64,000 nucleotides of DNA, from positions 1-64,000 of the forward strand of contig SVNP01000001.1 of NCBI GenBank assembly GCA_015066805.1, written 5' to 3'. How positions within the stretch are numbered: position 1 is the first letter of the stretch; each line of letters begins with the position of its first letter. The notes beneath the pieces are model-generated. The model saw only the letters and a list, made by a program, of their open reading frames with translations. It was not told the origin of the DNA and ran no database searches. Position numbers and translations under genes: made by a program. Below are positions 2,408 through 12,543 of the stretch, one piece after another. Source of the stretch: Ruminococcus sp. (lineage in GTDB: Bacteria > Bacillota > Clostridia > Oscillospirales > Ruminococcaceae).

Positions 2408-2863
2408 ATGGACGACTTTGATTATATGCGGCAGGCAATGGCTCTGGCAGAGCTGGCCGCCAAACAGGGAGAAGTACCCGTGGGTGCCCTTGTGGTGGAC
2501 AGAGCCACCGGAGAGATCCTCGGGCAGGGCTATAACCTGCGGGAAACGGGACATTCCCCCTTTGCCCATGCAGAAATCCTTGCCATGGAGGAAGCCGCAA
2601 AAAAACGAGGAAGCTGGCGGCTTTCCGGCTGTACACTGTACGTTACTCTGGAACCCTGTCCCATGTGCAGCGGTGCCATCATCAATGCAAGGGTGGAACG
2701 AGTGGTCTTTGGTGCATATGACCCCAAGGGCGGTGCGATCTGCTCCGTGGAGGAAATGTTCTCGCTGCCCTACAACCATAAGCCCAGAGTAACAGCCGGT
2801 CTGCTGGAAGAACCCTGCACCCTGCAGTTACAGGAATTCTTCCAAAGCCTTCGGCAAAAATAG
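2408..2863 (+). CDS. tadA: tRNA-specific adenosine deaminase TadA
   Basis: TadA converts A34 to inosine in the anticodon of tRNA-Arg(ACG) so one tRNA reads several arginine codons. The 151-residue protein has the full zinc deaminase signature: HAE at 54-56, with the catalytic Glu, and PCPMC at 83-87, which supplies the two zinc cysteines. Length is normal for the bacterial enzyme. GAGG lies seven bases before the ATG. It closes a likely unit with the membrane protein gene just upstream. No structural RNA is evident in the 100 bases after it. Confidence 0.95.
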   Translation: MDDFDYMRQAMALAELAAKQGEVPVGALVVDRATGEILGQGYNLRETGHSPFAHAEILAMEEAAKKRGSWRLSGCTLYVTLEPCPMCSGAIINARVERVVFGAYDPKGGAICSVEEMFSLPYNHKPRVTAGLLEEPCTLQLQEFFQSLRQK

Positions 2864-2965: not shown

Positions 2966-2994
2966 TTGCATTTGATGCCCGTTTGTGCTATAAT
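2966..2994 (+). promoter_or_regulatory. sigma-A promoter of the amino-sugar operon
   Basis: TTGCAT at 2966-2971 and a perfect TATAAT at 2989-2994 with a 17-bp spacer. Transcription would start about 60 bases before the epimerase gene. Confidence 0.85.
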
Positions 2995-3063
2995 AATGAT
3001 GTGTGATTATATATTGCGGCAGCTCTGCGCTGTCAGCAACACAGAAAGGAATGCGTGATTCAT

Positions 3064-4017
3064 ATGGCAACCGTTTTAATTACCGGCGGCTGTGGCAGAA
3101 TCGGTGAAAAGGTATGCTCCGGTCTTCTGAAGAAGGGAAATACCGTGATCGCTGTGGATACAGCACCCACCGACTATAACGCGCAAAAGGAAAATTACAT
3201 CTTCCGTCAGGCAGCCCCCAATGAAAAAGGCAAGTACGGCGATATCTTCGATGAGTTTGCCATCGATTATGTGGTACACTTGGCTTGCACCGTCGATAAC
3301 GACTTTGGCCCCATTGTGGGAAAAGAACAAATGGATCTCAGTGCTGCATGCAACAAGTTCCTGTATAAGCTGGCCATCGGTAAGGAGATCAAGAAGTTCA
3401 TCCTGGTCAGCACCACACAGGTGTATAAACAGCCGGAGACCCGTGAGCCGGTCCGTGAGGATGACCCCAAAAAGCCCGTATCCAATTATGGCAAGCTGAA
3501 AGCCGATGCAGAGCAGGCCTTTGCCAACGATGTAGCCCGTACCAAGACCATGGTCTGCTGCATTATGCGGATCCCGCCGGTGTATTCTCTGGATTTCACC
3601 GACAACCTCATGTCCCGCATTACCGACCCCAAGGATAAGACCCTGTTCATTTATCGCACCGGTGAGTACGGCTTCCATATGTGCTGCATCCATAACGTGG
3701 CAGATTTCATCATCTGCTTCCTGCGTCAGGCAGAGGGGCTGACCTATACCGGCAACTACAATGTCGCCGATTCCAGCCTGATTATGGCCTCCGAGATCAT
3801 CAACTTTATGAAGGAAAACCACCGTCTCGGTCCGGTGCTGCAGCGCAACAGCATCAACAACAGCCTGTTCAAGCGCGTCTTCGGCAGCACAACACCTGAG
3901 GAGCGCACCGACTACCGCTACCTGGATTTTGCCACTATCGACAAAAACTTTATGTTCGATATCTCCAAGGCGGCACGGCTCTGCCCCTTCCGCTGGAATA
4001 TCCATAACACAAAGTAA
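3064..4017 (+). CDS. NAD-dependent epimerase/dehydratase (extended SDR)
   Basis: A 317-residue extended short-chain dehydrogenase/reductase. It shows the Rossmann nucleotide motif GGCGRIG (8-14), the active-site serine region LVSTTQVY (about 114-121) and the YGKLK catalytic Tyr/Lys pair (142, 146). Such enzymes act on nucleotide sugars, often as 4-epimerases or dehydratases; the sequence does not settle the substrate. It is the first gene of a unit with a ROK protein and a GlcNAc-6-P deacetylase/kinase fusion, so a role in hexosamine interconversion is a reasonable inference. ATG 3064 gives the canonical N-terminus MATVLITGG but lies 13 bases from AAAGGA; GTG 3055, four bases from the same site, is an alternative adding three residues. 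Confidence 0.85.
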   Translation: MATVLITGGCGRIGEKVCSGLLKKGNTVIAVDTAPTDYNAQKENYIFRQAAPNEKGKYGDIFDEFAIDYVVHLACTVDNDFGPIVGKEQMDLSAACNKFLYKLAIGKEIKKFILVSTTQVYKQPETREPVREDDPKKPVSNYGKLKADAEQAFANDVARTKTMVCCIMRIPPVYSLDFTDNLMSRITDPKDKTLFIYRTGEYGFHMCCIHNVADFIICFLRQAEGLTYTGNYNVADSSLIMASEIINFMKENHRLGPVLQRNSINNSLFKRVFGSTTPEERTDYRYLDFATIDKNFMFDISKAARLCPFRWNIHNTK

Positions 4018-4085
4018 ACCATCCGCATAAGGGCATTTTCCCTGTGCCGATGCATAGAATCAACACGAAGAAAGGATTTCTCCGA

Positions 4086-5426
4086 ATGATCAAACCTATT
4101 CTCGATGACAGCTTTGTTCCTGCGGTGTATTTCAACCGCGAGTTCCTCAGCACCGCAACACGCCCCTTCTCCATTGCAGTGGAGCGCGAGGACGGTCTTG
4201 TGTACCGCCGCGACACCATGCTGGGCGATGATTTCTCGCAAAACTGCCTTTATGCAGAGCGCTTGATCAAAACCATTCTCTGGTGTGCAGGCGGCTGGAA
4301 GGTCATGCTTTCCGGCGACCACGATGTGTACTGCTATATCCGTGATGCCTACACCAAGGAAGGTCTCCGTGCATTTGACGTGGATTTCTGGAGCACCACC
4401 TACGAACGTCCCTTCGTTGTGGAGGAGCTTGCTCTGGAAGATATGCCGCAGAGCAAAACCAACCCCCTTTCCATCGGCAGAAACCTGGGTGGCTGCCGTG
4501 TAGGCTTCGATGCAGGCGGCAGTGATATCAAGGTAGCTGCCGTGGTGGATGGCGAAACCATCTGGGCTGAAGAGATCGTCTGGCTGCCCAAGCTGGCAGA
4601 GGATATTTCCTACCACCAAAAGCATATTAAGGAAGCCATTGAGCTGGCTGCCTCCAAAATGCCCCGCTTCGATGCCGTGGGCGTCAGCACCGCAGGCGTG
4701 CTGGTGGCAAACCGTGCCATGGTTTCTCACCTGTTTCTGAAGGTCCCCAAGGACACCCAGGGTGCCGCCTGCAAAAACATCTATGTGGATGTGCTGGGCG
4801 AAATGGGCGTTCCCTACGCTGTTGCCAATGATGGCGACGTGGCTGCTCTGGCAGCCTCCATGGCTCTGGATGTCAACGGCGTGCTGGGCATTGCCATGGG
4901 CACCAGCCAGGCCGGCGGCTATGTGGATTGCAACGGCAACGTCACCGGCTGGCATAACGAGCTGGCTTTCGTTCCCGTGGATTATAACCCCGATTCTGCC
5001 GTGGATGAGTGGTCCGGCGATTACGGCTGCGGCGTGAAGTATTTCTCCCAGGATGCCGTTATCCGTCTGGCACCCAAGGCAGGTATTACACTGGATGAAT
5101 CCCTGACACTGGCAGAAAAGCTGACCGCTGTGCAGCAGCTTCTGAAGGAAGGTCACGAGGGCGCAAAGGATATCTTCCGCACCATCGGCACCTACTTCGG
5201 CTATGCCATCGCAAACTATGCGGATTTCTACGATATCCGCTACCTGCAGATCTCCGGCCGTGTTACCTCCGGTGAGGGCGGCGATCTGGTCATCAACGGT
5301 GCCAAGGAAGTTCTTAAGACAGAATTCCCCGCCCTGTACGAGCAGATCCAGTTCATCCTGCCCGATGAGATGGACCGTCGTGTGGGTCAGGCGGTGGCTG
5401 CCGCAAGCCTTCCCGGCATTGCATAA
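4086..5426 (+). CDS. ROK-family sugar kinase-like protein with N-terminal extension
   Basis: A 446-residue protein whose second part is a ROK (repressor/ORF/kinase) fold. The phosphate loop FDAGGSDIK starts near residue 141 and the catalytic-base motif NDGD is at 248-251. ROK kinases phosphorylate glucose, GlcNAc, ManNAc and similar sugars at O6. Two things are unusual. About 135 residues precede the ROK core and contain no recognisable helix-turn-helix. The usual zinc motif CxCGxxGC is absent: only WHNE (289-292) and one cysteine (315) remain in that region. Its place beside a GlcNAc-6-P deacetylase suggests an N-acetylhexosamine kinase. The start is ATG 4086, ten bases after AAGAAAGGA; an in-frame GTG at 4044 has no site. 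Confidence 0.8.
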   Translation: MIKPILDDSFVPAVYFNREFLSTATRPFSIAVEREDGLVYRRDTMLGDDFSQNCLYAERLIKTILWCAGGWKVMLSGDHDVYCYIRDAYTKEGLRAFDVDFWSTTYERPFVVEELALEDMPQSKTNPLSIGRNLGGCRVGFDAGGSDIKVAAVVDGETIWAEEIVWLPKLAEDISYHQKHIKEAIELAASKMPRFDAVGVSTAGVLVANRAMVSHLFLKVPKDTQGAACKNIYVDVLGEMGVPYAVANDGDVAALAASMALDVNGVLGIAMGTSQAGGYVDCNGNVTGWHNELAFVPVDYNPDSAVDEWSGDYGCGVKYFSQDAVIRLAPKAGITLDESLTLAEKLTAVQQLLKEGHEGAKDIFRTIGTYFGYAIANYADFYDIRYLQISGRVTSGEGGDLVINGAKEVLKTEFPALYEQIQFILPDEMDRRVGQAVAAASLPGIA

Positions 5427-5490
5427 TTCCCGCAGCGATATTACGATGAAAGGATTTCACGCATATATCACTGCGTGACTGAAGTGCATT

Positions 5491-7680
5491 ATGATTCTGA
5501 AGAACCTGACGCTCAACGGCGTTTTGAGCGATATTACCGTGGAGAACGGCAAGATCACTGCCATTGCTCCCGCCGATGATAAAACCCCCGGCGAATCCTA
5601 CGACGGCATGACTGTCATCCCGGGTCTGGTGGATATTCACACCCATGGCTGTGCAGGCTATGATACCATGGATGCCCACTTTGAGGAGATCAGCAGCTAC
5701 CTGGCACAGAACGGTACCACGTCCTTCCTGCCTACCACCATGACCATGGATTATGAATCCATCCGCCGTGTTACTGCCGCCAACAGAGATGTTTCCGGCG
5801 CACAGATCTTGGGCTTCCATATGGAAGGCCCCTATATTGCCGCACAGTACAAGGGCGCACAGAACGGCAAGTTCATCAAGGAGCCCGATTTGGCTGAGTT
5901 CAAATCTCTGCCCGATATGAAAATGGTCACCATCGCCCCTGAGCTGGCAGGCAGCATGGAGTTCATCAAGGAATGCGGCGCTGTGGTCTCTCTGGGCCAT
6001 ACCGCTGCCGATTACGACACCTGCATCAAGGCCATTGATGCCGGCGCTCTTTGCCTGACCCATACCTTCAATGCCATGCCCGGCATTCACCACCGCAACC
6101 CCGGTCCCATCGGTGCGGCGGTGCAGAAGAACATCTATGTGCAGGCCATTACCGATGGTCTTCACCTGCATCCCTCCATCGTCATGCTGCTGTATAAGGC
6201 CTTCGGCCCCCAGCGCATGGTGATTATCAGCGACAGTATGCGTGCCACCGGTCTGTGCGACGGCACCTATGAGTTCGGCGGCCAGCCCATTGAAGTGAAA
6301 AACAGTGTGGCCCGCACGCTGGATGGCGCCATTGCCGGCTCCACCTCCACCCTGTTCACCTGCATGAAGCAGGCAATCGCATTCGGCGTACCCTTTGAGG
6401 ATGCTGTTACCATGGCAACCCGTACCCCTGCCGATCTCATCGGTGCTTCCAACAAGGGCCGTATTGAGGTGGGTGCCGATGCCGACCTGCTGATTCTGGA
6501 TGAGGAAATGAACCTTGCCCATGTGATGATCGGCGGCGTGTTTATCCATCAGGATAACGAGCAGCATAAGCGCTACATGGAGGAAAAGAACGTTCTCCGC
6601 GAGATCGCCTCCAAGTTTCATGTCACAGGCGAGTTTATCGCCCATGAGATCATCAATCAGGGCAATATCAACACCACCTACCGCGTGGATTACCGCCAGG
6701 AGGACGGCTCTGTCAAGTCCTATATCCTCCAGCGGGTCAACACCTATGTGTTCAAAAACCCCGTGGAGATCATGAAAAACATTGATCTGGTCACCACCCA
6801 CCTGCGAAACAAAGTGCGCCGCCTGAATAAGCCCGCCCTCCACTTCTATCATACCGAGGCGGACAACAACAACTACTATGTTCAGGATGAAGGCGCATTC
6901 TGGCGGCTGCTGAACTATATCAGCTCCGTAACCTTTGATACCTGCGATGATCTGGATACCCTGCGGGGCGCAGGCGAGGCCTTCGGCGAATTCCAGAACC
7001 AGCTTTCCGATTTTGATGCCTCCTTGCTGTTCACAACCATCCCCGATTTCCATAACACCGCAAAGCGTCTGGAGACCTTCTTTGCGGCTGTGGAGGAGGA
7101 TATCTGCGGCAGAGCTGCCGAGATTGCAGAGGAAATCGCATTTATCAAGGAAAACCGTGAGCTGGCTTCCCAGCTTCAGCAGATGCTGGACGAGGGCAAG
7201 CTGCCCCTGCGTGTCACGCACAACGATACTAAAACCAACAACGTGCTGTTTGACCGCCAGACCTTTGCTCCCCTGACCATTATTGATCTGGATACGGTCA
7301 TGCCCGGTCTGCCCATGCACGATTTCGGCGATGCTGTGCGCTTTGCCGCCAGCACCGCTGTGGAGGATGAACCCGATCTCTCCAAGGTTTCCCTGGACCT
7401 GAACAAGTACCGTGCCTTTGCACAGGGCTTCATCGGCAAAATTGCCGATGCACTGACCACCGCCGAGGTAAAGACCATGGCTCTGGGTGCCATTACCATC
7501 ACCATTGAGCTGGCAGTCCGCTTCCTGACGGATTACCTCACCGGTGACAAGTATTTCAAGACCAACTACGAAGGCCATAACCTGGTGCGTGCCCGCTGCC
7601 AGCTTGCACTTGCAAAGGATATGCTTTCCAAGCGTGCCGATATGGAGCGCATCGTCTGCGATGTGGTCGGCGGCATCTGA
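5491..7680 (+). CDS. N-acetylglucosamine-6-phosphate deacetylase fused to APH-fold sugar kinase
   Basis: A 729-residue fusion. Residues 1-~352 are a complete NagA amidohydrolase: HTH (50-52), metal-ligand Glu in HMEGPY (112), GHTAADY (His170), LTHTFNAM (His191) and catalytic Asp in SDSMRATG (248). NagA deacetylates GlcNAc-6-P to GlcN-6-P. Residues ~366-729 are an aminoglycoside-phosphotransferase-fold kinase resembling N-acetylhexosamine 1-kinases (NahK): N-terminal GNINTTYRV, YILQRVN, catalytic loop HNDTKTNN (577-584) and metal-binding IDLD (598-601). Both halves look intact, and the frame is open without a break at the junction. The start is the first ATG after an in-frame stop at 5476; its binding site is weak. 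An AAAGGA 40 bases upstream precedes a ten-codon mini-frame. This is the last gene of the operon. Confidence 0.88.
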   Translation: MILKNLTLNGVLSDITVENGKITAIAPADDKTPGESYDGMTVIPGLVDIHTHGCAGYDTMDAHFEEISSYLAQNGTTSFLPTTMTMDYESIRRVTAANRDVSGAQILGFHMEGPYIAAQYKGAQNGKFIKEPDLAEFKSLPDMKMVTIAPELAGSMEFIKECGAVVSLGHTAADYDTCIKAIDAGALCLTHTFNAMPGIHHRNPGPIGAAVQKNIYVQAITDGLHLHPSIVMLLYKAFGPQRMVIISDSMRATGLCDGTYEFGGQPIEVKNSVARTLDGAIAGSTSTLFTCMKQAIAFGVPFEDAVTMATRTPADLIGASNKGRIEVGADADLLILDEEMNLAHVMIGGVFIHQDNEQHKRYMEEKNVLREIASKFHVTGEFIAHEIINQGNINTTYRVDYRQEDGSVKSYILQRVNTYVFKNPVEIMKNIDLVTTHLRNKVRRLNKPALHFYHTEADNNNYYVQDEGAFWRLLNYISSVTFDTCDDLDTLRGAGEAFGEFQNQLSDFDASLLFTTIPDFHNTAKRLETFFAAVEEDICGRAAEIAEEIAFIKENRELASQLQQMLDEGKLPLRVTHNDTKTNNVLFDRQTFAPLTIIDLDTVMPGLPMHDFGDAVRFAASTAVEDEPDLSKVSLDLNKYRAFAQGFIGKIADALTTAEVKTMALGAITITIELAVRFLTDYLTGDKYFKTNYEGHNLVRARCQLALAKDMLSKRADMERIVCDVVGGI

Positions 7681-7766: not shown

Positions 7767-8828
7767 ATGCAAACGATTTGTGTACTGTTCGGCGGTGTTT
7801 CCCCCGAACATGACATCTCTCTGCGCTCCGCAGAGGCCGTACTGCGGAACATGAAAACCGAAAACCGCACCATTCTGCCGGTGGGTATTACCAAGGAGGG
7901 CCAATGGCTGCTCTTTGGCGGCAAAGATTACAGCGAGCTTGGCAACGGAAGCTGGAAGGAGAATCCTGCCAACCGTACCGCTTTTCTTTCTCCCGTTAAG
8001 GGCATGGGTCTGTGCATCGTTAATTCCGAAGGCAAGGCCGAGACTGTGAAAGTAGATGTTGTTTTCCCTGTGCTGCATGGCGAAAACGGTGAGGACGGTA
8101 CCATTCAGGGATTGTTTACGCTGGCAGGTATCCCCTATGTGGGCTGCGGTGTGCTGGCTTCTGCTGCCGCTATGGATAAATCCGCAACCAAGCTGATGGC
8201 TGCCACCACAGGTGTAAAGCAAGCCGATTGGCTGGTACTGCGCCGTCGGGATTTCAAAACCGATGCCGACACCATGTGCAAAGCTGTCACCGAAAAGCTT
8301 TGCTACCCCGTATTCATCAAGCCTTGCAGCACCGGTTCTTCCGTGGGTGTTTCCAAGGCAAAGAACACCGAAGAACTGCTTGCCGCACTGGAAAATGCCT
8401 TCCGCTTTGATGAAAAAGTGCTGGCAGAAGCATTTATCAACGGCAAGGAAGTGGAGGTGGCCGTAATGGGCAACTATGAGCCCGTTGCCGCTACCCCCGG
8501 TGAGATCGACGCAGGTGCAGAGTTTTATGACTTTGAGACCAAATATGTGACAACAACCTCCACGCCCTATATTCCTGCCCGTGTCCCCGCACAGACCCTC
8601 TCTGCCGTGCAGGATTGGGCGGTAAAGATCTACCGTGCACTGGGCTGCAAGGGGCTTTCCCGTGTGGATTTCTTTGTGACCCGTGATACAGGTGAGATCG
8701 TCTTTAACGAGATCAACACCCTGCCCGGATTCACCTCTATCTCCATGTACCCCAAAATGTTTGCTGCCGATGGTGTGGATTTCCCCGAGCTGATCGAACG
8801 GGTCATCGCACTGGCTTTGGAGGACTGA
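7767..8828 (+). CDS. ddl: D-alanine--D-alanine ligase
   Basis: Ddl joins two D-Ala with ATP to make the dipeptide end of the peptidoglycan stem. The 353-residue ATP-grasp protein begins with LFGGVSPEHDISLRSA, contains the glycine-rich loop KPCSTGSSVGVSKA, and ends with the metal-binding EINTLPGFTSISMYPKM. In this last motif FTSISMYP is typical of D-Ala-D-Ala ligases. GGAGG lies five bases before the ATG. murF starts two bases after its stop, so substrate maker and user are coupled. Confidence 0.95.
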   Translation: MQTICVLFGGVSPEHDISLRSAEAVLRNMKTENRTILPVGITKEGQWLLFGGKDYSELGNGSWKENPANRTAFLSPVKGMGLCIVNSEGKAETVKVDVVFPVLHGENGEDGTIQGLFTLAGIPYVGCGVLASAAAMDKSATKLMAATTGVKQADWLVLRRRDFKTDADTMCKAVTEKLCYPVFIKPCSTGSSVGVSKAKNTEELLAALENAFRFDEKVLAEAFINGKEVEVAVMGNYEPVAATPGEIDAGAEFYDFETKYVTTTSTPYIPARVPAQTLSAVQDWAVKIYRALGCKGLSRVDFFVTRDTGEIVFNEINTLPGFTSISMYPKMFAADGVDFPELIERVIALALED

Positions 8829-8830
8829 TC

Positions 8831-10237
8831 ATGGCAATGTGTGCGCCCACGCCTGCAACCGTGCAGGCAAATACCCTGTGCCAATGGCTGCAAATGCCCC
8901 CCTTTGCGGAGGATTTTACGGTGACGGGTTTCAGTACCGATACCCGCACCATTGTACCCGGCAATTGCTTTCTTGCCCTGAAGGGTGAAAACTTTAACGG
9001 CAATCTGTACGCACAGGCTGCCGCAGAGCAAGGGGCCGTGCTGTGCATCCTCTCCCAGCAGCCCACAGAGCCGCTGACTGTGCCCTACCTGCTGGTAGAG
9101 GACTGTGTGCGTGCCTATGGCATCATTGCTGCGGGCTACTTAGAGCAGCTTCGGCAGCAGGGAACTAGGATCATCGGCATTACAGGCAGCAGCGGCAAAA
9201 CCACCGTCAAGGATATGACTGCCCATGTGCTTTCCAAGGGATTTGCTACCTATTGCACCGCAGGCAATCACAATAACCATATCGGCCTGCCCTATACGGC
9301 TCTGCGTGCCCCCAAAGAGGCGGAAATCGTTATTTTGGAAATGGGTATGAATCATACGGGAGAAATCGCCTACCTGACAGGAATCGCCCACCCTGAACTC
9401 AGCATCATCACCAATGTGGGAACGGCTCATATCGGCAATCTGGGTTCTCAGCAAGCCATTTTTGATGCGAAAATGGAGATCACCCAAGGCATGCGGCAGG
9501 AGAGCGGTATTCTGGTGCTGCCTGCCGAAGATGCACATCTGGCACTGGTGCAGCAGCAATCTCCCCTGCCCTGTAACCTGCGTTACAGCAGCCGCACAGG
9601 TTTACCTTTCGCCGCACTGCAGGCTGAAAACATTCGTGAAACAGCTACTGAGACCCGTTTTACCGCATCCTATGCAGGGGCAACTGCCGAGGTCACGCTG
9701 CCTATGACCGGTATTCATAACGTAAGCAACAGCCTGCTTGCCATAGATGCCGCCCTTGCCTGCGGAATGTCTTTACAGGAGGCTGCGGCGGCTTTGGCTG
9801 ATTTTGCACCCGGTGCTATGCGAAGCGAACGTGTGGTTCTGGGGAATCTCACTGTCATTCAGGATTATTACAACGCCAACCCCGAGGCCATGCGGGCTTC
9901 TCTGGCGGCTTTGCAGACCATTGCGTCAGGTGCAAAGCGCATTGCGGTACTGGGCAATATGAATGAACTGGGCACCTACGCCGCCAAGGCACATCGGGAG
10001 CTGGGCGCACTGGTAAAAGCCTCCGCCGATGCTGCTTATTTTTGCGGCGTGAATCATGCGGATTTTGCTTCGGGGCACGGCGCAGGCTGCCATGCCTTTG
10101 AGCAGCAATCCGATCTGATCACGCAGCTTTGTGCAGATCTGGCGGCAGATGATACCAAAGCCGTGCTGCTGATCAAAGGCTCCCGCGGCATGAAGATGGA
10201 AAACGTCTTTGCCGCCATCTCGCAAATCAAATCATAA
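8831..10237 (+). CDS. murF: UDP-N-acetylmuramoyl-tripeptide--D-alanyl-D-alanine ligase MurF
   Basis: MurF adds D-Ala-D-Ala to UDP-MurNAc-tripeptide, the last cytoplasmic step of the precursor. The 468 residues show the Mur ligase layout: an N-terminal substrate domain with FSTDTRT, the P-loop GSSGKTT at 119-125, the central MGMNHTGEI, and the C-terminal DYYNANPEAMRASL. The start is supported by GGAGGA six bases upstream, inside the end of ddl. A perfect 15-bp hairpin follows the stop. Confidence 0.95.
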   Translation: MAMCAPTPATVQANTLCQWLQMPPFAEDFTVTGFSTDTRTIVPGNCFLALKGENFNGNLYAQAAAEQGAVLCILSQQPTEPLTVPYLLVEDCVRAYGIIAAGYLEQLRQQGTRIIGITGSSGKTTVKDMTAHVLSKGFATYCTAGNHNNHIGLPYTALRAPKEAEIVILEMGMNHTGEIAYLTGIAHPELSIITNVGTAHIGNLGSQQAIFDAKMEITQGMRQESGILVLPAEDAHLALVQQQSPLPCNLRYSSRTGLPFAALQAENIRETATETRFTASYAGATAEVTLPMTGIHNVSNSLLAIDAALACGMSLQEAAAALADFAPGAMRSERVVLGNLTVIQDYYNANPEAMRASLAALQTIASGAKRIAVLGNMNELGTYAAKAHRELGALVKASADAAYFCGVNHADFASGHGAGCHAFEQQSDLITQLCADLAADDTKAVLLIKGSRGMKMENVFAAISQIKS

Positions 10238-11226: not shown

Positions 11227-12543
11227 TTATTTCATGAACACAAAGGCTTGCAGATCGAACAACTGTCGCTGATCAAATGCCTGCGAAGCCCAGCCGTGGT
11301 AGGCGTGATCCATCACAAAATACACGCTATGGCGACCCGTCACAGGCTTTACTCTTGTCTGATAGGTGCCATCATGGGTATCTATCATGCAGACACCGAT
11401 CTCCTCGCCATCTTCGTCATCCAAGCGGATGTGAATCTCTGCCTTGCAGCCGCTGCCCGTAACCTGTGCGGCAAAGGTCATACCATCACCTGTAAAATCA
11501 TCACCGAAATCAAAATACTTGTAGCCGATGACTGCGCCCTTATGGATCGCCATAATACAGCGGGTAAAGACATCCTTTTCGGTGATCATGCAGCCGCCCT
11601 TCAGCACGCAGGCGATCTCTGCGGGAGTAATGCGGTAAGGATTCAGGGCAGTTTCAAAGCCCAGAGAAGTCATCTCCACCTCGGGAATGGTGCCGTCGGA
11701 CAGGATCTCCACACGCTCCACACAGGCACGGCGAGAGGTAATGGTACCATTTGTCATGCGGTGATAGAAAATATACCATTGCCCGTTGATACAGCACAGG
11801 GAGCCATGATCGTTGCCACCGGGGTAATCCTTACTGTTATTGATAATCGTTCCCATGCGCACAAAGGGGCCTTCCGGCCGATGGGCAATGGCATAATTCA
11901 GGCAGCAGCCAAATCTCGGGGAGTAGATCAGATAGTATTTCCCGTTGATCTTTCTGGGAGAGCTGGCCTCAAAGAAATCATCGGGTGCGCTGCCGCGGGG
12001 GATCAGATCTGCCTTGTAGGAGCCTTTCTTCACGGTGATCATATCAGGCTCCAGCGCATTGAAGTGGGAACGCTCAAAGCCATAGTAGATGTAGGCACTG
12101 CCGTCATCATCCACCAGCACACCGGGATCATTGAAAACGCCCTCATCACCGCCATCGGCTTCCTCATACCGATACCGTCCCAGCAGCGTAAAAGGTCCTT
12201 CGGGATGATCACTGACACCCACACAGCCCTTGGAGCCTACAATATAGGCATACAGATAGTATTTGCCGTCCTTTTCCACCACATCGGGTGCATACAGCTC
12301 GCTGTCCGTCCACTCGGCGGTATCCGGCTCTCTGCCGTTTTCCCCTCTGGTGCAAAAGCTGATGCCGTGACAGCTCCAGTTGGTCAGATCATTCACGGGA
12401 GCAGACCAGACCATCAGACGGTAATCGCAGAAAAACTCACAGGCTGCTCTGTCATGAGAGCCGTAAATATACACTCTGTCCCCAAACACACGGGGTTCGC
12501 CATCGGGAATATACTCCCACAAGGGCAAAAAGGGATTTGCCAT
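11227..12543 (-). CDS. glycoside hydrolase family 43 (xylosidase/arabinofuranosidase type)
   Basis: GH43 enzymes release xylose or arabinose from hemicellulose by an inverting mechanism. The three catalytic carboxylates can be placed: Asp14 in YIPDGEPRVF (base), Asp139 in FNDPGVLVDDDG (pKa modulator) and Glu192 in DDFFEASSPRKI (acid). The five-bladed propeller fills residues 1-~310. About 120 further residues form a beta-rich C-terminal region that may be a carbohydrate-binding module. There is no signal peptide, so it probably acts in the cytoplasm on imported oligosaccharides. GAGGAGG is six bases before ATG. It is a single-gene unit with its own promoter; exact subfamily and substrate cannot be fixed by eye. 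Confidence 0.88.
   Translation of the reverse strand: MANPFLPLWEYIPDGEPRVFGDRVYIYGSHDRAACEFFCDYRLMVWSAPVNDLTNWSCHGISFCTRGENGREPDTAEWTDSELYAPDVVEKDGKYYLYAYIVGSKGCVGVSDHPEGPFTLLGRYRYEEADGGDEGVFNDPGVLVDDDGSAYIYYGFERSHFNALEPDMITVKKGSYKADLIPRGSAPDDFFEASSPRKINGKYYLIYSPRFGCCLNYAIAHRPEGPFVRMGTIINNSKDYPGGNDHGSLCCINGQWYIFYHRMTNGTITSRRACVERVEILSDGTIPEVEMTSLGFETALNPYRITPAEIACVLKGGCMITEKDVFTRCIMAIHKGAVIGYKYFDFGDDFTGDGMTFAAQVTGSGCKAEIHIRLDDEDGEEIGVCMIDTHDGTYQTRVKPVTGRHSVYFVMDHAYHGWASQAFDQRQLFDLQAFVFMK

Follow-up and report, generated by a model that had tools for sequence, protein, structure and literature searches.

A conserved NagA-kinase fusion in Ruminococcus predicted to join two routes of amino-sugar salvage

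The stretch of DNA analysed here (the window) covers bases 1–64000 of contig 8 of a 2.07-Mb draft genome of Ruminococcus sp., estimated to be 79.6% complete, and carries close to its start a cluster of three genes on the + strand: an extended short-chain dehydrogenase/reductase (SDR) of the epimerase/dehydratase type (3064..4017, 317 aa), a ROK-like protein (4086..5426, 446 aa) and a protein of 729 residues in which a NagA domain is followed by a sugar kinase domain in one open frame (5491..7680). An earlier note on this DNA had described the same SDR, ROK protein and NagA-kinase fusion, and all three are present; the span that it gave was right for the genes but not for its start, since the SDR begins at 3064 and not at 2966. 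Within the fusion, residues 1–352 (5491..6546, +) make up the NagA domain, residues 353–366 (6547..6588, +) a linker of ~14 aa and residues 367–729 (6589..7680, +) a predicted NahK-type N-acetylhexosamine 1-kinase domain. The near relatives of the locus (L002–L013) are metagenome-assembled genomes assigned to Oscillospiraceae, Ruminococcus or Clostridiales, and sheep, horse or water-buffalo gut is the source in 7 of the 12.

The full-length fusion is found in a single open frame without a stop in 11 of the 30 genomes of the genus, the present one included. Four pairs of fused genes give dN/dS values of 0.034 to 0.111 for the NagA half and 0.034 to 0.107 for the kinase half, with synonymous sites near saturation in some of them. 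Over residues 351–366, synonymous sites are saturated while the nonsynonymous proportion (pN) is only 0.063–0.076, and the low amino-acid change against this background indicates a junction that is both translated and conserved. Purifying selection acts on the two halves and on the stretch that joins them. The earlier note had also proposed checking how widely the fusion occurs. Full-length matches were confined to the genus: among the matches listed for a family sample of 396 genomes, the three full-length rows all belong to it, and in an order sample of 394 genomes the full-length fusion was found in the present genome only. None of 229 matching plasmid records spans 80% of the fusion, and among open-licence papers we found no description of a NagA-kinase fusion or of NahK with NagA and NagB. 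The fusion is real, conserved and, as far as could be searched, undescribed; its two enzymes are known, and their arrangement is what is new.

The NagA half scores 268.1 bits with TIGR00221 (curated cut-off 225.65) and matches PDB 2vhl with an E value of 1e-58. In the alignment of the fusions, His50, His52, Glu112, His170, His191, Arg202, His225 and Asp248 are invariant in 11 of 11, and the metal and catalytic residues, which we take to be His50, His52, Glu112, His170, His191, His225 and Asp248, line up with those of PDB 2vhl and 1o12. By these matches, and as the earlier note had held, residues 1–352 are predicted to be an intact NagA, that is an N-acetylglucosamine 6-phosphate (GlcNAc-6-P) deacetylase. 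It differs from the known enzymes in that it bears a C-terminal kinase, in that its gene mostly precedes ddl and murF, and in that a NagB was found in none of the 30 genomes of the genus.

The kinase half matches Pfam APH with 66.1 bits and PDB 4ocj and 4wh1 with E values of ~1e-81. Its closest solved relative is NahK of Bifidobacterium longum (277 bits, E 2.7e-81), residues 363–726 aligning to residues 22–375 of the chain, and His577-Asn578-Asp579 and Asp599/Asp601, the HND and DLD residues on which the description of an intact APH-fold kinase had been based, are invariant in 11 of 11 fusions. We aligned the 11 fused kinases with 15 standalone kinases of the genus, 19 others and B. longum NahK. 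In this alignment, 71 columns are invariant in the fused, standalone and B. longum sequences and differ in no more than one of the 19 others; Asp208, Asn213 and Asp228 (NahK numbering) are among them. Wherever B. longum NahK and all 34 unfused relatives share one residue without exception, the 11 fused kinases have that residue as well. Fifteen columns separate the fused from the standalone kinases of the genus, and in seven of them the fused kinases agree with B. longum NahK. Residues 367–729 are accordingly aligned over their full length with NahK/LnpB of Bifidobacterium and with BT4240 of Bacteroides thetaiotaomicron, keep every family-invariant residue and are predicted to be an intact NahK-type N-acetylhexosamine kinase; the differences are that the kinase is here fused behind NagA and that its likely partner is a UAP1-like enzyme and not a GalT/GalE cluster. 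Each half of the fusion thus looks, at the level of sequence, like an ordinary member of its family. The available part of the report on B. longum NahK describes phosphorylation at O1 of both N-acetylglucosamine (GlcNAc) and N-acetylgalactosamine (GalNAc) (PMC8106489), and that on BT4240 describes an O1 kinase that yields GlcNAc-1-P, not GlcNAc-6-P, and favours GalNAc ~275-fold (PMC11992087).

The surroundings of kinase relatives were inspected in 20 loci from other families of the order, chosen among the higher-scoring places. A CapD-type gene lies within the fetched stretch in seven of these, and a UDP-GlcNAc 2-epimerase-like gene lies at most two genes from the kinase in five (L194–L197, L210), three of which were put to Pfam and all gave Epimerase_2. 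A Wzz gene is found in one locus (L203) and a PGM/GlmM-type mutase in another (L206), and the other loci are without the query genes or have neighbours that lacked a name. Surroundings with CapD, 2-epimerase, Wzz or mutase genes are nucleotide-sugar and polysaccharide neighbourhoods. We also observed a separate kind of fusion in other genera of the same family, in which a PglD-like hexapeptide acetyltransferase precedes a NahK-type kinase in proteins of 527–735 aa as called (L108, L109, L110, L111, L113); Pfam confirms this for L108 and L109, and the other three were judged by length and sequence start. The kinase family is again the C-terminal part of a two-domain protein, although the N-terminal part is of the acetyltransferase type and not a deacetylase. 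Among matches in long frames of the family and order samples, L107–L113 were opened, and a kinase match in an 850-aa frame of G735 is among those left out.

In the ROK-like protein the ROK part occupies residues 139–396 of 446, preceded by ~135 residues without a family, and the Pfam ROK cut-off is passed narrowly (30 versus 22.9 bits). The catalytic pair Asn248-Asp249 is invariant in 23 of 23 aligned ROK-like proteins, and a profile of the family gave no match in the PDB at 0.001. ROK-like matches occur in 60 of 297 genomes in a family sample, with 39 near-full-length rows in 38 genomes outside the genus (47–55% identical). Among 25 ROK loci from other genera, a GH112 phosphorylase acting on lacto-N-biose/galacto-N-biose (LNB/GNB) lies directly upstream in three (L140, L142, L150), an AGE epimerase in one (L131) and a NagA-like gene in two (L130, L132); in the remaining 19, where only some neighbours were put to Pfam, none of these was recognised within ~1.5 kb. 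A further ROK locus (L107) has both an AGE and a NagA-like gene. Since GH112 releases GlcNAc or GalNAc, N-acetylhexosamine kinase is the natural guess for the ROK-like protein, which is probably such a kinase, and the 6-position would follow from the ROK gene preceding NagA. In the available part of the Roseburia work, N-acetylhexosamine (HexNAc) derived by GH112 is modelled as passing to GlcNAc-6-P through a kinase that is not named there (PMC7335108). The GH112 model matched 0 of 30 genomes of the genus but also 0 of 14 control genomes, while it does match the GH112 of L140, L142 and L150.

The SDR has the Epimerase fold (Pfam 69.5 bits) and reaches 54.1 bits with TIGR01179 galE, for which the cut-off is 262.3. 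Its translation contains GGCGRIG and YGKLK, which we take to be the characteristic motifs of such proteins.

In the remaining 19 of the 30 genomes, NagA stands alone at the same locus, is 69–76% identical and ends at 352–354 aa. We tabulated the neighbourhoods of 27 NagA loci, 11 fused and 16 split, with neighbours grouped by clustering; one or two members served to confirm the name of each of the clusters UAP, CapD, GlmS, GalE, YihY, DUF1292, ddl, murF, TadA and a CAAX-type protease. In 26 of the 27 loci the ROK gene stands before NagA, the contig of the remaining one being cut short, and the SDR cluster is present in 24, two of the others being cut short (L013, L080). The genes that follow the fusion in the window, ddl for D-alanine--D-alanine ligase (7767..8828, +; TIGR01205, 362.9 bits over 245.65) and murF (8831..10237, +; TIGR01143, 404.3 bits over 288.6), come after NagA in 24 of 27 loci, and the exceptions are three fused genomes (G023, G018, G006).

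A separate kinase of the same family is encoded elsewhere in 18 of the 19 split genomes, counting two with partial matches only (G025, G028), and no second kinase was found in any of the 11 fused genomes. Fifteen standalone kinase loci from 14 genomes were fetched, and the kinase lies beside a UAP-like gene in seven, beside GlmS in six and beside neither in two; by coordinates, 10 of the 18 split genomes that have a kinase carry UAP next to it. A GalE cluster is next to the kinase in three of the 15 loci (L056, L061, L063; confirmed for L063). On the kinase tree the fused domains form one clade (98/89) and the 15 standalone rows another (100/99), which groups first with L021 from Clostridia (97/93) and L018 from Lachnospiraceae (98/91); the standalone kinase therefore does not derive from the fused domain by detachment. 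No credible kinase remnant was found behind NagA in the 19 split genomes (tblastn E 0.02–0.42). Separate halves in close relatives had been named in advance as what might betray a sequencing error; such relatives make up 19 of the 30 genomes, but because their kinases, where found, sit elsewhere and the 15 placed on the tree form another clade, they do not signal one.

A tree of ROK, DDL, MurF and SDR from 26 genomes, in which three genomes fill less than half of the columns, has a single branch dividing fused from split (100/99). The NagA tree (35 of 38 rows, L082, L083 and L005 having been dropped as repeats of places already included) roots weakly within the fused forms (79/85), and the ROK tree, with fused and split intermixed, leaves the direction of the switch unsettled. 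The fused genome G007 falls inside the split clade on the NagA tree (96/90) and is sister of a single split clade on the four-protein tree (100/99); in view of the latter placement, refusion in G007 is not claimed. The GlmS rows (L155–L184) fall into two deeply separated groups that are discordant with the operon tree, and GlmS could not be used as a species tree. The pattern fits best with a single swap between fused and free kinase, in whichever direction, and not with many independent events.

All 30 genomes of the genus have NagA. No genome of the 30 matched TIGR00502 nagB (8 of 14 controls match) or PF01182 (9 of 14 controls match), so a glucosamine 6-phosphate (GlcN-6-P) deaminase of the NagB family, the second step of NagA-NagB catabolism of GlcNAc, was not found in the genus. 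A SIS-type deaminase was judged from the SIS domain (PF01380). This domain matches in 29 of 30 genomes, the strong matches lying nearly all in GlmS-sized frames (608–646 aa) and otherwise in shorter frames (G015, G025, G029); on the tree, L172 from G015 and L170 from G025, both fragments, fall with GlmS, and two weak matches fall below the cut-off (G009, G019). GlmU is over its cut-off in 24 genomes, with long partial matches in two more. All 30 have PGM/PMM-family matches, two in 21 genomes, one in eight and three in G023, where the third is a 197-aa frame; the usual two are, judging by their size, presumably GlmM and PGM. A UAP1/AGX-like UDP-N-acetylhexosamine pyrophosphorylase, a eukaryote-like enzyme, is encoded in 27 of 30 genomes and often adjoins the standalone kinase, but it is neither fused to nor adjoining the NagA-kinase fusion. 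The UAP-like gene of the present genome (contig 8, 107589–108782) matches UAP with an E value of 4.6e-80 and UGPase with only 1.8e-08.

The reading that we favour, with a probability of roughly two in three, is that the fusion is a bifunctional amino-sugar salvage enzyme whose halves serve parallel and not consecutive routes that meet at UDP-GlcNAc. The C-terminal domain would phosphorylate free N-acetylhexosamine, GlcNAc and/or GalNAc, at O1, and the HexNAc-1-P would be converted to UDP-HexNAc by the UAP1-like pyrophosphorylase, whose gene lies elsewhere in the genome. GlcNAc-6-P would come from the ROK-like kinase of the cluster or from uptake; the NagA domain would form GlcN-6-P from it by deacetylation, and GlmM and GlmU would carry this on to UDP-GlcNAc. 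We call the halves parallel because GlmM-GlmU is, as far as seen, the only exit for GlcN-6-P, and because a UAP is there to accept HexNAc-1-P. Given that no NagB-type deaminase was found, both halves would serve the supply of cell wall and nucleotide sugars and not glycolysis, and this role fits the ddl-murF neighbourhood. The earlier note had offered, as one of two possibilities, a fusion that brings together two branches of GlcNAc/GalNAc salvage, and the genus-wide counts for NagB and UAP support that choice. Its puzzle of two kinases in one operon is mostly resolved if, as we infer, each kinase supplies a different enzyme: NagA would receive GlcNAc-6-P from the ROK-like protein, and UAP would receive GlcNAc-1-P from the fused kinase. 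The regiospecificity and substrate of the kinase, the role of the ROK-like protein as a 6-kinase and the importance of physical coupling are likewise deduced.

Several observations weigh against this reading. It leaves the retention of NagA unaccounted for, since the route through kinase and UAP bypasses deacetylation. In the ROK alignment of 23 sequences the CxCGxxGCxE motif and the ExGH histidine, which we take to be the zinc motif of the ROK family, are absent, and the GlcNAc kinase model for NagK (NF009835) gives 18.9 bits against a cut-off of 380. UAP is without a match in one fused genome (G018) and in G022 and G026, and in the fused genomes it does not adjoin the fusion. One split genome (G003) is without a kinase, and the kinase matches of G025 and G028 are, as said, partial; at one locus (L005) a different gene takes the place of the SDR, and 3 of the 11 fused loci have no ddl-murF behind the fusion. 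G029 has short SIS frames only, so a SIS-type deaminase (NagB-II/GlmD) is not fully ruled out. In addition, only 13 of the 30 genomes, the present one not among them, combine a completeness of 90% or more with a contamination of no more than 5%, and since fused and split differ by one switch, the mutual exclusivity of fused and free kinase has no independent replicates. Finally, in one locus of another genus (L112) a NahK-type kinase adjoins a NagB-family gene (PF01182, 69.1 bits), and this kinase family may be used catabolically in other genera.

A more specific proposal is that the fusion acts as a branch-point enzyme, a single polypeptide holding the first committed GlcNAc-1-P step and the committed GlcN-6-P step, with one ligand setting the split between them; UDP-GlcNAc or GlcNAc-6-P can be named as candidates for the ligand, and we regard this as a tentative possibility. 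A division of labour by sugar is rather unlikely: the fused kinase would be mainly a GalNAc 1-kinase leading to UDP-GalNAc, the ROK-like protein and NagA would take GlcNAc, and the SDR would be the 4-epimerase. The GalNAc preference of BT4240, which belongs to the same family, and the GalE cluster adjoining three of the 15 standalone kinases point in this direction, as does the fact that UAP1/AGX-type enzymes accept GalNAc-1-P; however, B. longum NahK takes both sugars, the SDR scores far under the GalE cut-off, and the kinase has no residue known to report sugar preference.

It is improbable, too, that the halves act in sequence, the kinase making GlcNAc-1-P, a phosphohexomutase turning it into GlcNAc-6-P and the NagA half deacetylating the latter, so that the fusion brackets a missing middle step. 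Enzymes of the PGM/PMM family are at hand in 30 of 30 genomes, and the PGM/GlmM-type gene of L206 is two genes away from the kinase relative. No dedicated acetylglucosamine phosphate mutase is evident, though, the usual two PGM-family matches being of the size that we associate with GlmM and PGM; moreover, the kinase can be unlinked, beside UAP or GlmS, and the ROK protein of the cluster could make GlcNAc-6-P directly. The other possibility raised in the earlier note, a kinase shifted to O6 that hands GlcNAc-6-P directly to the fused NagA, has the physical fusion itself in its favour and is very improbable, and we rejected it: no family-invariant residue is changed in the 11 fused kinases, their distinguishing columns match B. 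longum NahK in 7 of 15 cases, the two characterised relatives act at O1 in what is available of their reports, BT4240 yielding the 1-phosphate (PMC8106489, PMC11992087), and the sister genomes have a free NagA and, in 13 of 15 kinase loci, UAP or GlmS as the neighbour of the kinase. Draft assemblies of many contigs might raise the suspicion of an error in assembly or sequencing, or of a read-through fusion in decay, but such an origin has a negligible likelihood and is refuted by the 11 genomes in one frame, the selection on the junction and dN/dS of 0.03–0.11 in both halves.

Upstream of the cluster, a TadA-like deaminase gene (2408..2863, +) with 17 cluster members scores 141.2 bits with NF008113, slightly below the cut-off of 150, and is not thought to be part of the amino-sugar function. 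Further upstream, at 3–1146 of the window, lie genes of DUF1292-type and YihY-family clusters, and in four split genomes (L055, L060, L062, L066) these two clusters lie on either side of the UAP-kinase pair; the common flanks suggest a past rearrangement near the kinase. Downstream, a glycoside hydrolase family 43 protein is encoded at 11227–12543 (-), with a CBM6 match of 28.1 bits, slightly below the cut-off of 28.9. A short inverted repeat lies between a Shine-Dalgarno-like AAAGG and the ATG of the fusion (window 5449–5490) and is also seen in L023 and L029. Such a repeat occurs in 3 of 27 loci (G000, G011, G024) with a sequence that differs among them, and its folding exceeds chance only in G011 (z −2.66; G000 −0.92, G024 −0.67); the best fold of G024 is not its inverted repeat. 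No RNA family was found in the window, a scan for promoters and terminators gave nothing above chance, and no glmS ribozyme was found in 18 GlmS loci.

In mycobacteria, according to the available part of one study, NagA is a gate for the reuse of peptidoglycan GlcNAc, with NagB present (PMC12617635). The conserved two-enzyme protein described here seems to link two routes of GlcNAc salvage, and the gut bacteria that have it gave no match for a NagB-type deaminase. If it is a branch-point enzyme, two parallel anabolic salvage routes would be combined in a bacterium that is without a catabolic amino-sugar exit. The finding suggests that an annotation of NagA need not imply catabolism of GlcNAc, and it gives a testable statement, namely that some Oscillospiraceae would use amino sugars of host and cell wall for building and not for energy. 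With 11 fused and 19 split genomes that have a similar cluster, the genus also provides a natural system in which to ask what use there is in fusing enzymes that would be parallel and not consecutive.

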